Source: Cerasicoccus frondis (lineage in GTDB: Bacteria > Verrucomicrobiota > Verrucomicrobiia > Opitutales > Cerasicoccaceae). From it: a DNA stretch of 64,000 bases. Position numbers and translations under genes: made by a program. This document shows positions 30,020 through 44,778 of this stretch, piece by piece. Numbering within the stretch: position 1 is the stretch's first letter; every line of letters starts with the position of its first letter. The DNA lies in NCBI GenBank assembly GCA_031296915.1, contig JAVDPC010000030.1:16547-80546 (forward strand), in the 5' to 3' direction. The notes below the pieces were generated by a model that saw only the letters and a program-made list of their open reading frames with translations, was not told the DNA's origin and searched no databases.

Positions 30020-30328
30020 GTGCCTCAAGACGCCCCTACGAAAGAAGCGCTCGTCAATCGCTATTGGCGCGCGAACCTAACCATCACGCTCGGCCTGCTG
30101 TTTATCTGGGCCTTTGTCAGCTTTGGCTGCGGCATTTTGTTTGCCGACGTGCTGGACGACATTCACCTGTTCGGCACGGGCTATCCGCTCGGGTTCTGGT
30201 TTGCGCAGCAGGGGTCGATCATCGTCTTTGTTTTCCTGATCCTCATCTACGCCATCGCGATGAACGCGCTCGACCGCAAGCACAAGCGCGAGATGGACGA
30301 GTTTAAGGCGAAGGGAGGCCAGGCGTGA
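30020..30328 (+). CDS. DUF4212 small subunit of Na+/solute symporter
   Basis: 102 aa with two membrane segments (ITLGLLFIWAFVSFGCGILF and SIIVFVFLILIYAIAMNAL) and the motif YPLGFWFAQQGS that marks the DUF4212 small partner proteins of ~600-residue solute:sodium symporters. GTG start. Its 3' end overlaps the GTG start of the large subunit by 4 bp, so the two are coupled and presumably form one transporter. Confidence 0.9.
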   Translation: MPQDAPTKEALVNRYWRANLTITLGLLFIWAFVSFGCGILFADVLDDIHLFGTGYPLGFWFAQQGSIIVFVFLILIYAIAMNALDRKHKREMDEFKAKGGQA

Positions 30329-32226
30329 GCGTTCAAGTTTGGACCTACATTTTCGTTGGCCTGAGTTTCTCGCTCTATCTGGGCATTGCCTGGTGGGCGC
30401 GCGTGGCCGACACCAAGGGCTTTTACATTGCCGGAGGCGGCGTGCCGGCGTCCGCTAATGGCATGGCGACGGCGGCCGACTGGATGTCTGCCGCGTCCTT
30501 TATTTCGATGGCGGGTCTGGTCTCGACCATGGGGTATTCCGGCGGCGTTTACTTGATGGGGTGGACCGGCGGTTACGTGCTTTTGGCGCTGCTCATCGCG
30601 CCGTATCTGCGCAAGTTTGGGCACTTTACGGTGCCGGATTTCGTGGGTGACCGCTTCGGCACGAGCTTTGCCAAAGGCAAGCCCGACACGATGATGGCGC
30701 GCATCCTTTCCAACCCCGCGCGCGTCGTGGCGGTGGTCTGCGCGCTGTTCGTGAGCTTTACTTATGTGGCCGGGCAAATGCGCGGCGTGGGCCTTGTGTT
30801 TAGCCGCTTCCTCGAAGTGGATATCAACATCGGCGTGGTGATCGGCATGATCATCGTCTTCGTCTATTCGACCCTCGGCGGTATGAAGGGCATCACGTGG
30901 ACGCAGGTGGCGCAGTTCTGGGTGCTGATAACGGCCTTCCTCGTGCCGACGATTGCGATCTCGCTCAAGCTGACCGGTGAAATGGTGCCGCAGATCGGCC
31001 TCGGCTCCGAGCTCATTGACGGCGGTATGATGCTGCTCGATCGCCTCGACGGCCTGCACAAGGAGCTCGGCTTTAGCAGCTACACTGAGCCTTTCCAGGG
31101 GAAGTGGGACAAGGCGAACGTCTTCATGGTCGCCCTCGTTCTGATGGCCGGCACCGCTGGTCTGCCGCACGTGATCGTGCGCTTCTACACGGTGAAGTCG
31201 CCGGCGGCGGCTCGATGGAGCGGCTTCTGGGCGCTGCTTTTTATCTCGGGCCTCTACCTGAGCGCACCAGCGCTGGCTGGCTTTGCGCGCTTTTACATGA
31301 TCAATACGCTCAACGGCGCGACCGAGCAGGACATCCCCAAGTGGTTTACTAACTGGGAGGAAACCGGCTTGATTCTCTGGGTGGACGACGGCGACGGCAA
31401 ACTCCACTTTTCCAACAAGGACGACAACGAAATCTTCCGCCAAGGGCCGACGCTCAGCGACAGCGAGCTGCTCCACATCATCAAGGATCACCAGCTCTAC
31501 ATCGACACCAAGGACTCCGCCGATCCCCGTGGCGAGGACGGCCGCGCCATCCTGCGCGACATGGGCTTGAGCGGTCCGGACAAGGACATCATCGTGCTCG
31601 CCACGCCCGAGATGGCCGAGTTGTCCAACTGGATCATTGCGTTCATTGCGGCCGGTGGTTTGGCGGCGGCGCTGTCCACGGCGAGTGGCCTGCTGCTGGT
31701 GATTTCCTCTTCCGTCGCGCACGACTTGTATTATCGCATCATCAACCCCGTGGCGTCGGAGAAGCAACGCCTCCTCGTGGGCCGTGGCTTCATCGGCCTG
31801 GCCGTGGTGATCGCGGGCATCTTCGGCATCTACCCGCCCGGCTTTGTGGGCGAGGTGGTGGCCTTTGCGTTTGGTCTGGCCTCGGCGAGCTTCTTCCCGG
31901 TCATCCTGCTGGGCATCTTTAACCGCCGCGTCAGCACGACGCCTGCGGTGTTCGGTATGATCGCGGGCATGGGCTTCACGATGTTCTACATCATCGCGGT
32001 GAAATACTTCGGCATGGCGCAGTGGACCTTCTGGGGCCTGAGCGAGCCCGGCATCCAACCGGCGGCCATCGGCGCCATCGGCATGGTGATCAACTTCGTC
32101 GTCGCGATCGCGCTGTCGTTCGTCTGCGAAAAGCCCGGCCCGGAAATCCAGGCCCTGATCGACTCCGTCCGCGAACCCGAAGACGCCGAAGGCTCAATCA
32201 ACATCGAAGACGCCCCGGAGCATTAA
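30325..32226 (+). CDS. sodium:solute symporter large subunit (VC_2705-type SSS family)
   Basis: 633-aa SSS-family transporter with about 13 hydrophobic segments. Early motifs: SLYLGIAWWARVADTKGFYI, GGVPASANGMATAADWMSAA and GLVSTMGYSGGVYLMGWTGG. A hydrophilic extracellular insert (~335-430, rich in Asp/Lys) splits the core, as in the VC_2705 subfamily that pairs with DUF4212 proteins. These usually carry acetate or other small organic acids, but the substrate is unproven. GTG start overlapping the small subunit. The gene-free stretch downstream borders the reverse transcriptase segment. Confidence 0.93.
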   Translation: MSVQVWTYIFVGLSFSLYLGIAWWARVADTKGFYIAGGGVPASANGMATAADWMSAASFISMAGLVSTMGYSGGVYLMGWTGGYVLLALLIAPYLRKFGHFTVPDFVGDRFGTSFAKGKPDTMMARILSNPARVVAVVCALFVSFTYVAGQMRGVGLVFSRFLEVDINIGVVIGMIIVFVYSTLGGMKGITWTQVAQFWVLITAFLVPTIAISLKLTGEMVPQIGLGSELIDGGMMLLDRLDGLHKELGFSSYTEPFQGKWDKANVFMVALVLMAGTAGLPHVIVRFYTVKSPAAARWSGFWALLFISGLYLSAPALAGFARFYMINTLNGATEQDIPKWFTNWEETGLILWVDDGDGKLHFSNKDDNEIFRQGPTLSDSELLHIIKDHQLYIDTKDSADPRGEDGRAILRDMGLSGPDKDIIVLATPEMAELSNWIIAFIAAGGLAAALSTASGLLLVISSSVAHDLYYRIINPVASEKQRLLVGRGFIGLAVVIAGIFGIYPPGFVGEVVAFAFGLASASFFPVILLGIFNRRVSTTPAVFGMIAGMGFTMFYIIAVKYFGMAQWTFWGLSEPGIQPAAIGAIGMVINFVVAIALSFVCEKPGPEIQALIDSVREPEDAEGSINIEDAPEH

Positions 32227-32290
32227 TGCTCCGCCGGGCGGGCTTTGGCCACACCTCGCTACGAAGGCTCATCCGCACGACCCCATTTCC

Positions 32291-32327
32291 CGGAGGGCAA
32301 CACTCCGTTGTTGCCACCCTATGGAAC
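32291..32327 (+). repeat. left arm of inverted repeat bounding the RT segment
   Basis: Begins CGGAGGGCAACACTCCGTTG. It pairs with the reverse complement of 34530-34566 at 32 of 37 positions. Lies between the symporter stop and the RT stop codon. Also contains its own small hairpin (GGCAACA / TGTTGCC). Confidence 0.6.
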
Positions 32328-32366
32328 GGGGAATACTCAGGTGTGCCCACCGACTTGTTGTAATTT

Positions 32367-33998
32367 TCAATACGGGTCTGGCCTTTCATCAGGCTCAGCC
32401 ACGACAGTGGTCACAGGATGTGTGGCTAATGTCTGGTCATTCAATCGACTAAGTGCACTGCGGACCGGCTCGCATGATCTAGCGGAATGTTCATGAGCCC
32501 TTCTTCTTATTTCCTGAATCTCCATGTCTGACACTGACGCCATGTAAATCCCTATTAAATTTAACTCAAATGCTCGTGCTGAGAGAAAGGCTGGTAGCAG
32601 ATAAAGAATTGATTGCCGCTCTTCATCTTCAAGTTGATCAAAGAAACGAAACTGACGTTGGCCTCTCTTCTTTAAAAGATGGTGGAGGCATCTATACTTA
32701 GCGTAGTCACAGACGCTCTCGCTGGATAATAATTCTAGGATCTTTGATCTACAATGTTCCTGGGTGTCGGGAGAAACTCCTCGATATAGAGCAGTTTGAA
32801 CGAGTAACCATGTTGCATGCTTAGATGCACCTCTACCAATTTCAACAAAATCAGCTAGCATATTAACATGCCAAATAGCTCTATCTTCGAGCGAAAGGAC
32901 CGGATGACCATCAGCAGTATGTGAACTCATATATTTACAGAAATCCTTACCATCTTTCTTTCGGTCGATATCATCACCTTCGTTAAAGACTCTATCGAAT
33001 TCCTCGAATGGTGCATCAATCTCTTGGTCTAAGATCTGTAATCCTGCGTTCTCAACTTCGATCTCTATTGAAGCATCAACGAGATAGTTTGAGGATCTTA
33101 AATCATCCATCTCTGCTTCATTCTCTGCGATAGTGGTTTTTGACGAATTGAGATTTAGGCCAAGATTCAGCAAGCATTCTTGTAGAGACCTTAAATGTCC
33201 TAAAACTTCAACCCGTGAACTACCAAATATTCTGATGTCGTCTACGTAACGACCATAGGTGGCGCCAAGACTCGTCATAGCATCATCGACATCCTTCAGG
33301 TAGATATTTGCTAAATACCCCTCAACGCCATCGCCTATAGGTAATCCTTGGTGCAATTGGGATGGCTGAGCAATTTGACCTGTTGCCTGCGAATAATAAA
33401 TCACACGCGTCTTCAGTAATCGCATAAATAGTCGAATTATTTCAGTATCTCTGGGTATCGACAGATGCCTTTCTATCGCATCAACCAAATATTCGTGAGA
33501 AACAGAGTCATAAAATGCTGAAATGTCGGCTTTCACTAAGACATTGTGTTCGTCGCATTTCTCTTGCTGCCATTCGCAAAAACGTGGCCAGCCACCTGTC
33601 GCAAATTCTTCGGTAAAGCGAATGTTCTGGGCGTCTCCGGTTGCCCTGCGGTTGGCAAAGCACTCATCAAGAATCTCATATTCTACTTCCTCGGAAAATA
33701 GTATAGTGATGGCATACCTGACCACCAAATCCTTCAACGGTATGTATACCATCCTTCGGTCACATAAGTGATTCTTAGGAGGAAAGTAGGCAAATGCGGT
33801 TCTAGGTTGATAAGCTTCAACATTATCAAGTTCGCTTATTATTTCTGCTATTATGCTCTCTCTATTTGATATCGAGTATTCAATTTCTATAGGATCAAAG
33901 AAATGGTCTCCATTTTGCCTATCGAAAATTGCGTAGTCAAAAGCTGCAGACAAAATTTCCCTACTCCTCAGACGTCTTAATGCTGTTTGGTGGTCCAT
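32367..33998 (-). CDS. solitary reverse transcriptase (UG/Abi-like, defence-type candidate)
   Basis: 543 aa. RT motifs: YFPPKNHLCDRRMVYIPL (71-88), VKADISAFYDSVSHE (155-169, catalytic Asp158), QGLPIGDGVEGYLANIYL (217-234), GRYVDDIRIF (249-258, catalytic YVDD) and LNLNSSKTTI. No maturase X domain, HNH nuclease or integrase; instead a helical C-terminal region of ~240 residues (300-543). This layout fits the unclassified or defence-related bacterial RTs (UG/DRT, AbiA/AbiK-like) rather than group II introns, retrons or diversity-generating RTs, but the exact class cannot be named. The gene is clearly AT-richer than its neighbours, stands alone, and is bounded by an imperfect inverted repeat. No terminator or ribosome-binding site evident. 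Confidence 0.9.
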   Translation of the reverse strand: MDHQTALRRLRSREILSAAFDYAIFDRQNGDHFFDPIEIEYSISNRESIIAEIISELDNVEAYQPRTAFAYFPPKNHLCDRRMVYIPLKDLVVRYAITILFSEEVEYEILDECFANRRATGDAQNIRFTEEFATGGWPRFCEWQQEKCDEHNVLVKADISAFYDSVSHEYLVDAIERHLSIPRDTEIIRLFMRLLKTRVIYYSQATGQIAQPSQLHQGLPIGDGVEGYLANIYLKDVDDAMTSLGATYGRYVDDIRIFGSSRVEVLGHLRSLQECLLNLGLNLNSSKTTIAENEAEMDDLRSSNYLVDASIEIEVENAGLQILDQEIDAPFEEFDRVFNEGDDIDRKKDGKDFCKYMSSHTADGHPVLSLEDRAIWHVNMLADFVEIGRGASKHATWLLVQTALYRGVSPDTQEHCRSKILELLSSESVCDYAKYRCLHHLLKKRGQRQFRFFDQLEDEERQSILYLLPAFLSARAFELNLIGIYMASVSDMEIQEIRRRAHEHSARSCEPVRSALSRLNDQTLATHPVTTVVAEPDERPDPY

Positions 33999-34310
33999 GT
34001 TATTCTATTCAACAGTGTTATTGATCGCACCGTTTAACTTACGAACTGAGCAGATCTTCGGTGCTGATCTTCTATTCAAATTGGTCGAAGGTCATTTCTT
34101 CGTCAAGGTTGTAGGTTGATACAAGAAAATCTCAATTCACAAATTCCAATGATCCAATTCTTGTCTTTTCATTGGGTGATGGAACGCGGCGGAAGGATGA
34201 CCTTGCTGGGCAGGGACTCGCGAACCTTACTTGGAAGTTGGGGCAAAACACCGGTGTTTCGTGACGCAACACAGCTGGGCATTGAGAGCATAGCCCCTAC
34301 AGGCTTTGGA

Positions 34311-34397
34311 AGAAGCGTCGGCTACGCTTCCCGGGAGTGTCGGCGACACTTCGAGTGACAGTCGGCGACGCTTGGTCGCACAGTGGGCGATACTTGA
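34311..34397 (+). repeat. 22-bp-period tandem palindromic array, copy A
   Basis: Four units with the core GTCGGCGA (one copy each altered to GTCGGCTA and GTGGGCGA) at an exact 22-bp spacing. The first two units are themselves palindromes with different arms: AAGCGTCGGCTACGCTT and AGTGTCGGCGACACTT. 77 of 87 bases match copy B (44425-44511, opposite strand). Ends about 310 bp upstream of the RT start; the same end faces the downstream gene as in copy B. Confidence 0.82.
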
Positions 34398-34529
34398 AAG
34401 GCCCTGGGCGGCTCGTTTGAGCGCGCGGTTGCTGGGATTATCGTGTCAGAAAGCGGTCGGCGGGGCAAGCGAAGAGGGCGTGGATGTGCAGAAAAACGCA
34501 GTGACGGGTCCGGTGGGGATTGGCTGGCG

Positions 34530-34566
34530 GTTGCATGGGGTGGCGCCAACGGACTGTTGCCCTCCG
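34530..34566 (-). repeat. right arm of inverted repeat bounding the RT segment
   Basis: Reverse complement begins CGGAGGGCAACAGTCCGTTG; matches 32291-32327 at 32/37. Together the arms enclose about 2.2 kb containing only the RT gene and the 22-bp array. Confidence 0.6.
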
Positions 34567-34598
34567 CTGGAGGGGGATGGCCGCTAAACTGGGGTGTG

Positions 34599-35006
34599 CT
34601 AGCGCTTGCGTGATTTGCCGTCGGGGCGGCATTTTTCGAGGACGACTTTTAGGGCGTTGCCGGCCAGGAGGACCTCGCGCAGGCAGACGCTGAGCGAGGC
34701 GAAGAGCAGCAGGATGCTCAGGCCGAAGAGGACCTCGCCGAGCATTTGGAAATCCGTGTGGATCGCGAGGATCGATACCAGGCAACTCAGCAGCGAGAGG
34801 ATGCCCAGCGCCTGCATCCATTTGATCAAGGTTAGGCGCAGCTCGAGGTTGTCGATTTGGCGGCGGAGGGATTCGTCGTCGTGCTCGATAAGCTGCCCGG
34901 CGAGGTCACGCACGATCTTCGCCAGCGCCAGGAAACGGTTGGTGTACGCCAGCATCAGCAGCGATACCGCCGGGAAAAGAATGGCTGGTGTGGTGACGTC
35001 GATCAT
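34599..35006 (-). CDS. DUF2721 membrane protein
   Basis: 135 aa, with three hydrophobic segments (TPAILFPAVSLLMLAYTNRF; IKWMQALGILSLLSCLVSIL; LGEVLFGLSILLLFASLSVC) and the family signature PAVSLLMLAYTNRFLALAKIVR. Function unknown; common in environmental Gram-negative bacteria. ATG 35006 is chosen over a longer Pro-rich N-terminus. Downstream of the ispD-ispF-small membrane gene run, separated from it by a palindromic repeat. Confidence 0.85.
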   Translation of the reverse strand: MIDVTTPAILFPAVSLLMLAYTNRFLALAKIVRDLAGQLIEHDDESLRRQIDNLELRLTLIKWMQALGILSLLSCLVSILAIHTDFQMLGEVLFGLSILLLFASLSVCLREVLLAGNALKVVLEKCRPDGKSRKR

Positions 35007-35080
35007 GGGTGGTGGTGGCCTGTTAGGCGGCCACTTGAAAAGCATGCGTGAGGGCAGGGGAAATATTCAAGCCAATTAGC

Positions 35081-35165
35081 AGGTGGCGCGGGATCGTCTC
35101 GATCTGCACTGTGTAACGCTGGCCAAGCTGGGTGAAACTGCGGATCGAGACGATCCGCGCCACCT
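35081..35165. repeat. palindromic repeat with ~23-bp arms
   Basis: Left arm 35081-35104 (AGGTGGCGCGGGATCGTCTC...) pairs with right arm 35143-35165 (GATCGAGACGATCCGCGCCA...) with a single extra G. A degenerate relative lies at 17957-18042. Sits between two genes of one leftward cluster. Confidence 0.65.
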
Positions 35166-44424: not shown

Positions 44425-44511
44425 TTAAGTATCGCCGACTGCTGGACCAAGCGTCGCCGACTGTAGCTCGAAGTGTCGCCGACACTCCTGGCAAGCGTCG
44501 CCGACGCTTCT
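44425..44511 (-). repeat. 22-bp-period tandem palindromic array, copy B
   Basis: Read on the minus strand: four GTCGGCGA cores at exact 22-bp spacing, with palindromic units AAGCGTCGGCGACGCTT and AGTGTCGGCGACACTT. Differs from copy A (34311-34397) at 10 of 87 positions. Ends about 267 bp upstream of the DUF4304 gene, in the same relative orientation to it as copy A has to the RT gene. Flanking sequence beyond the first unit may also be distantly related to that of copy A. Confidence 0.82.
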
Positions 44512-44778
44512 TCGCGTACCACGTAAGGCTTTGGTCACAACCACGATAATGGTTGAGGCGCAACCACGGGTAGGTTTGCACCACAACAAGCAGGGGCTTT
44601 TTGCCACTGGCTCTTACTTCGCGCACCAAACGAGTCCTCTTGTAAAGAACAATGACCTACGAGTCGAATTGCCTGCGAGCTTTGCCAGATGTCGATGTAA
44701 AGTACTTTACTGTCCGATGGCCTGCGTGTAGCTATATGACGTTTTCGTCGCTTAAAAATATTATTTAGCAGAAACGAC

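Follow-up and report, generated by a model that had tools for sequence, protein, structure and literature searches.

A UG34-type reverse transcriptase of Cerasicoccus frondis as a putative single-gene defence system in a variable genomic slot

The window analysed here, i.e., a 64-kb stretch of the Cerasicoccus frondis genome, carries a reverse transcriptase (RT) gene for which family-model and tree evidence strongly support assignment as a new member of UG34, a known defence-associated RT family. The reading that we prefer, and hold at about even confidence, is that of a recently acquired, self-contained, single-gene UG34 defence RT, which, we infer, would synthesise DNA template-independently. 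The locus thereby enlarges a rare family of defence RTs by one, and its features are collected in Table 1.

Table 1. Features at the RT locus, in window coordinates
Feature	Position	Strand	Basis
SSF (sodium:solute symporter) gene, convergent with the RT gene	30325..32226	+	Pfam
DNA in this genome, missing at the same locus of same-genus G001	32246..34006	.	blastn against L170
Left arm, REP-like: GGAG, then an imperfect palindrome	32291..32327	+	
UG34-type RT, 543 aa	32367..33998	-	ORF, PADLOC RT_UG34, Pfam RVT_1, alignment
RT C-terminal region, residues 303-543, largely helical	32367..33092	-	AlphaFold2 model
RT core, about residues 30-300	within 32367..33998	-	
AT-rich non-coding leader upstream of the RT gene	34007..34311	-	also in G001, ahead of a different gene
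Array of about four 22-nt palindromic units	34312..34395	.	
Right arm, REP-like; different hairpin at this place in G001	34530..34566	-	
DUF2721 gene	34599..35045	-	Pfam

An earlier note, made from the sequence of this locus, had described an RT with an intact catalytic Asp158 and YVDD motif, a base composition unlike that of the flanks, and a symporter gene and a DUF2721 gene as neighbours, and these descriptions were borne out. The ORF call on the window returned a single intact RT ORF with no internal stops, and no other ORF of more than 83 aa in the segment. The catalytic aspartate is residue 158 (window 33525-33527) and the YVDD motif spans residues 251-254 (window 33237-33248). Across all 11 aligned UG34 proteins, D158, D253 and D254 are invariant (with YVDD in the window RT and a YNDD variant in L155, L157, and L159), and so are W397, R436, and R445 of the C-terminal region. 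The RT gene is foreign in composition, with a GC content of 0.425 vs. 0.557 for the whole window, and when the window was cut into 1248 overlapping tiles of 1632 bp, the eight tiles with the lowest GC all fell in the RT segment (the lowest tile clear of it having 0.460). Pfam identified the flanking genes as an SSF symporter and a DUF2721 gene, and RVT_1 as the sole match in the RT.

The PADLOC RT_UG34 model matched residues 1-490 of the RT with an E-value of 4.4e-158 (runner-up UG21, 1.1e-42); for the families nearest by HMM (UG21, UG19, DRT8, UG9, and UG32) no established chemistry was found. To place the protein, all UG34 proteins found except the partial G654/L158 copy (11 of 12) were aligned, and a 31-row RT-core tree was built from these 11 and from 20 of the 92 other extracted RTs (96 were extracted, including four UG34). 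Nine of the 20 non-UG34 rows bear a PADLOC label (ten proteins were scanned, including L067, which is not in the tree), while the DRT8 label of L032 and the group II and DGR-like labels were assigned by eye. The UG34 proteins formed one clade (100/100 support, present in 100% of 200 bootstrap trees), separate from the group II, DGR-like, UG9, UG19, and DRT8 groups. Within it, the window RT grouped (98/96) with the Melioribacter L062, with G900/L159, and with L155 and L157 from the Calothrix order; a second, cyanobacterial clade (100/100) held L063, L064, L065, L153, and L154; and L156 formed a long separate branch. The tree program flagged eight rows, four of them UG34 (L157, L156, L153, and L064), for an odd letter make-up, and L156 and L075 for their long branches. 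The window RT is 26-37% identical to the ten other aligned members. With the known UG34 RTs (PADLOC PDLC03773) it thus has in common the full-length HMM match, the clade, and the arrangement of an RT core plus C-terminal region, while the window copy, unlike the sister cyanobacterial clade, lacks a convergent NERD-helicase gene.

The HMM and the tree agree with the earlier proposal of a DRT/Abi-type defence RT rather than a group II intron or DGR enzyme. A group II intron RT was rejected on a maturase score of 82 bits against a cut-off of 300 and a position outside the group II clade, and a DGR on a position outside the two-row DGR-like clade; direct repeats of more than 22 nt were not found in 31800-35100. 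Class 3 DRTs are defined by nitrilase or phosphohydrolase domains, as set out in PMC13275509, and membership of this class was rejected as well, since the RT has RVT_1 alone and no such fused domain (the dGTPase of L155 and L157 is a separate gene). The defining paper for the UG/Abi RTs is Mestre et al. 2022. Among the papers searched, those naming both UG34 and reverse transcriptases are transcriptome studies that, judged by title, are unrelated; the passages of PMC8934634 consulted give other UG classes and do not name UG34.

The family is rare and patchy in the data searched, and spans distant phyla. No full-length copy of the RT was found in the 53 relatives' genomes searched, nine of which match it over part of its length only, and at E ≤ 1e-60 the UG34 HMM matched the own genome alone among 387 genomes drawn from the phylum. 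A pattern scan of genome contigs retrieved 181 RT relatives; among the best 80 of these, four stood out (a Melioribacter MAG, two Calothrix, and one Nostoc; E-values from 7e-114 to 9e-67), beyond which the E-value dropped to 5e-20, and all four matched the UG34 HMM at 3.3e-142 or better. The same HMM was matched in seven of 291 genomes from the Calothrix order (one being Calothrix itself), in two of 296 from the Melioribacter phylum (one being Melioribacter itself), and in three of 386 from the Calothrix phylum, all of which had already been found in the other searches. Although 177 plasmid records and seven phage records match the RT, none of them (25 of the 177 plasmid records being listed) has a place covering 80% of the query. 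Two pattern scans of viral contigs gave no match and a third no close relative (13 RT relatives at 21-35% identity), and a viral structure library held nothing informative for the RT. Such a rare and patchy distribution is as expected of a horizontally moving gene, and the window RT is horizontally acquired.

The insertion site itself could be compared in two genomes. The SSF gene was present in nine of nine family genomes searched; since among the nine stretches read the DUF2721 gene lay beside it only in G001 and G003, these two provide the only site comparisons. In G003, where the SSF gene is 96% identical, the SSF-to-DUF2721 gap consists of ~270 bp of unrelated DNA, i.e., an empty site. 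In G001 (SSF 95% and DUF2721 96% identical), the gap measures ~2.16 kb (L170:4160-6320) and holds a 330-aa ORF together with genes for a HicA toxin and a protein resembling HicB, the latter scoring below its cut-off; the RT query had no match in this genome. Homology between the window and G001, as traced by blastn against L170, ends at 32245 and resumes at 34007, and the novel DNA in between (32246-34006) comprises the RT gene and 121 bp 3′ of it. The contents of the slot differ between these same-genus genomes, in line with the earlier idea of an insertion rather than of identical flanking in all relatives. The 330-aa protein of G001 has no Pfam, PADLOC, or NCBIfam family and matches 15 plasmid records (best 49.5%), its plasmid-borne relatives being from Paraburkholderia, Cupriavidus, rhizobia, Agrobacterium, and Sphingopyxis. 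The start codons of this gene and of the RT gene are equidistant from the leader common to both genomes, over the last 40 bp of which identity fades to about 60-65% before the start codons, and the closeness of the gene start to this leader led us to consider an integron cassette. A bolder reading, which we regard as quite improbable, takes the SSF-DUF2721 slot as an exchange platform in which the ~300-bp leader stays fixed and unrelated accessory or defence genes are swapped behind it, with the UG34 RT contributing a new single-gene DRT chemistry that would need neither NERD-helicase nor dGTPase nor RNA.

As a defence role is putative, the RT might also be a domesticated enzyme, or one without phenotype, that serves no defence purpose. 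The three scanned window neighbours (SSF, DUF4212, and DUF2721) are indeed not defence genes. Against this stand the patchy distribution across distant phyla, the differing site contents in same-genus genomes, and the defence-like neighbours of two related RTs: that of Melioribacter L062 lies beside DruE-like, GajB-like, and MkoC-like genes, and close to that of L155 is a methyltransferase with likeness to hsdM and MADS2 that reaches neither cut-off. We therefore judge a non-defence RT to be unlikely.

The earlier note had also proposed that the segment moved as a ~2.3-kb cassette ending in inverted arms. The 37-bp arms themselves were confirmed, with 32 of 37 positions matching as an inverted repeat (86% complementary over 37 nt), and a degenerate pattern derived from them matched twice in the window vs. 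zero times expected by chance. A 2.3-kb mobile unit bounded by the arms, with the RT as cargo or engine, would agree with the finding that the 25-base core pattern (at most three mismatches) matches this pair alone in the own genome, which holds no other well-matching arm pair (five more rows scored E 0.4 or worse). The arm motif is nevertheless dispersed in G001 (13 listed matches, nine with E ≤ 3e-5), where the RT is unmatched and where five of the six stretches read have the motif as inverted pairs ~36-190 bp apart. Moreover, because G001 has the same ~600-bp leader region without the RT, the novel DNA runs from ~32246 to 34006 and not from arm to arm, the left arm lying ~45 bp inside and the right arm ~525 bp outside the DNA that varies against G001; and the RT is the only ORF above 83 aa that such a unit would carry. 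With the junctions (~32245/34007) away from the arms and the motif dispersed, the arms were rejected as transposon ends, the cassette proposal was abandoned, and a mobile unit of this kind appears very unlikely.

Judged by their motif and its distribution, the arms fit REP-like dispersed genomic repeats. Inverted pairs of REP-like GGAG-hairpin elements were seen in L206, L207, L208, L209, and L211, all from G001, and are far rarer in the window's genome. The motif was weak in G003 (eight rows, best E 0.004, with single copies in two stretches read) and absent from G002. The palindrome array upstream of the leader is likewise a dispersed repeat of the genus and not RT-specific: among the candidates scored, further distinct places were found in G000 (10), G001 (10), G003 (three), and G002 (one), and none in the other 50 genomes. 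One such array lies at about 44427-44513 (minus) of the window.

The ~600 bp upstream of the RT gene had been put forward in the earlier note as a possible host of an associated RNA, and an RT working with an ncRNA from this region, as in the RNA-templated DRT2 and DRT9, would find an obvious candidate in the ~300-bp AT-rich leader, whose identity to G001 ranges from 75 to 88% across 60-bp blocks. In G001, however, the leader precedes another gene and the RT query is unmatched; since the G001 homology resumes at 34007, the ~600 bp upstream of the RT are common to a locus without the RT. The leader had no match at the G003 site and none in plasmids or phages. Its differences from G001 were spread over the three phases as 26/15/17, compared with 29/13/140 for the codon positions of the SSF gene, and coding content of the leader was rejected in view of this lack of clear three-base periodicity. 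No promoter-like site was found upstream of the RT gene on the RT strand.

Upstream conservation was not found among UG34 orthologues in different contexts either. When 250-bp upstream stretches of the window RT and ten orthologues were compared in 55 pairs, only L064 and L153, which are the same locus, matched substantially (80%), and L065 and L153 matched over 17 bp; L063 and L065 have nothing in common upstream, even though their DNA agrees at 89% over 900 bp from the coding start. The RT of L155 is separated by a mere 2 bp from the preceding ORF and by 8 bp from the convergent downstream dGTPase gene, and in L157 the ORFs for RT and dGTPase have 4 bp in common. Rfam gave no family match in 32200-34620 up to E 1, and the palindromes are dispersed repeats. 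The proposal of an upstream RNA host thus lost its footing, and we consider an RT dependent on such an RNA to be highly improbable. Class 2 (ncRNA-templated) DRTs were accordingly rejected, as no conserved cis-encoded ncRNA lies next to the RT across contexts. This leaves room for an RNA encoded inside the RT gene or in trans.

The helical C-terminus predicted in the earlier note was recovered when the whole RT was modelled with AlphaFold2 (mean pLDDT 77, pTM 0.79, 11 sequences): the RT core is followed by about ten helices. Residues 331-520 have mean pLDDT values of 66-95 in 10-residue blocks, and confidence is low for residues 304-331 and 526-543. In Foldseek, the best PDB matches by E-value were group II intron RTs, followed by DRT4/UG15, DRT9, AbiK, Abi-P2, and DRT6 (470-612 alignment columns, TM 0.28-0.42); DRT2 and DGR RTs were matched as well, over shorter stretches. 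Because group II RTs come out best and the ncRNA-using DRT9 and DRT2 score similarly, the fold does not decide the mechanism. When modelled alone (pLDDT 66, five sequences), the C-terminus had no structural match at E ≤ 0.001, and the 50 rows listed contained many HEAT/ARM solenoids by name (best E 0.17).

Several known systems offer partial likenesses. DRT4 (UG15) and DRT6 are also single-gene systems with an RT and a further C-terminal region, matched in fold over 470-548 columns, but they belong to a different UG family and the similarity is modest (for DRT4, TM 0.35-0.42 and rmsd 10.5-11.9 Å). AbiK and Abi-P2 have an RT core with a long fold-search alignment (matches 7z0z and 7r08), but their families are separate from UG34, and in the window RT a priming residue is only putative, the first candidates being Y202, invariant across the 11 aligned proteins, and the nearly invariant Y22. 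The ncRNA-templated DRT2 and DRT9 have the RT core and fold matches with similar scores, and differ in that the UG34 upstream comparison gave no cis RNA signal. Abi-P2 synthesises DNA template-independently. According to PMC13174585 and PMC13213688, so do DRT4 and AbiK, DRT4 being a single-gene system that makes random ssDNA and to which DRT6 is related (PMC13213688). Class 1 UG RTs, as described in PMC13174585, combine the RT with a HEAT-like helical domain and synthesise DNA independently of a nucleic-acid template, whereas class 2 RTs are ncRNA-templated; DRT1, of class 3, performs template-free, protein-primed synthesis, as stated in PMC13275509.

Since the window RT has no fused effector, no visible cis RNA, and a helical C-terminus, a single-gene mechanism like that of class 1, i.e., template-independent synthesis, is the best fit, and we infer such a mechanism for UG34. 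In the preferred reading, the UG34 protein alone would oligomerise and, without an RNA partner, make DNA template-independently, with one of its own tyrosine or serine residues as the possible primer. This DNA would be switched on or stabilised by phage infection and would then arrest the infected cell, a course of events reported for the single-gene DRT4 as well as for enzymes of the Abi and DRT1 types.

The main rival to such a self-contained RT is that UG34 forms a multi-gene system needing a partner (a NERD-helicase, a dGTPase, or another nuclease or helicase), in which case the window copy would be an orphan, either non-functional or dependent on a gene at another place. At six of the 11 other UG34 loci (L063, L064, L065, L153, L154, and L156) an intact NERD-plus-helicase gene is convergent with the RT gene, and PADLOC has a dedicated model for it, RTasNERD-Hel, which matched the two of the six that were scanned (L063 at 2.3e-274 and L156 at 2e-207); that of L154 was checked by Pfam, and the remaining loci are homologous by tblastn. 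At L155 and L157 the convergent gene instead encodes a dGTPase, whose score exceeds the curated PRK01096 cut-off. Because eight of the 11 other loci thus have an intact NERD-helicase or dGTPase beside the RT, a ninth pair being broken, partners may matter. The window RT is homologous to that of the cyanobacterial UG34 + RTasNERD-Hel pair (PADLOC PDLC03813), but the partner gene is not in the window, and the RTasNERD-Hel model gave no match in the own genome; as the control genomes gave no match either, this absence is weak evidence.

Against an obligate partner speaks that no NERD-helicase lies in the stretches examined around the four RTs nearest to that of the window (the 98/96 clade). By tblastn, neither NERD-helicase nor dGTPase was found in the stretches examined of L062 and L159 or in the 64-kb window, and the window RT has an uninterrupted ORF and a complete active site. 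We therefore rate dependence on a partner as rather unlikely, though still to be reckoned with. The loci seen suggest two UG34 branches, one with the NERD-helicase and one without (solitary, beside other helicases, or with a dGTPase); in L062, for instance, the gene facing the RT encodes a 925-aa helicase that ends in a nuclease-like domain. This division allows UG34 to be tested as a single-gene DRT and speaks against searching for a cis RNA.

Some further arrangements were seen along the way. A broken UG34 RT and a truncated NERD-helicase at L158:7377-9110 represent a decayed pair. The UG34 RT-dGTPase pairs (L155:6590-9654 and L157:7307-10308) both come from the Calothrix order and have otherwise different surroundings; RT and dGTPase possibly form a module, and their association in these two relatives may point to a connection between RT activity and the control of dNTPs. 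Finally, another genome of the order carries a DRT8-type RT (L021:1477-4475) directly behind a gene that, by eye, resembles a restriction-modification methylase (NPPY motif).
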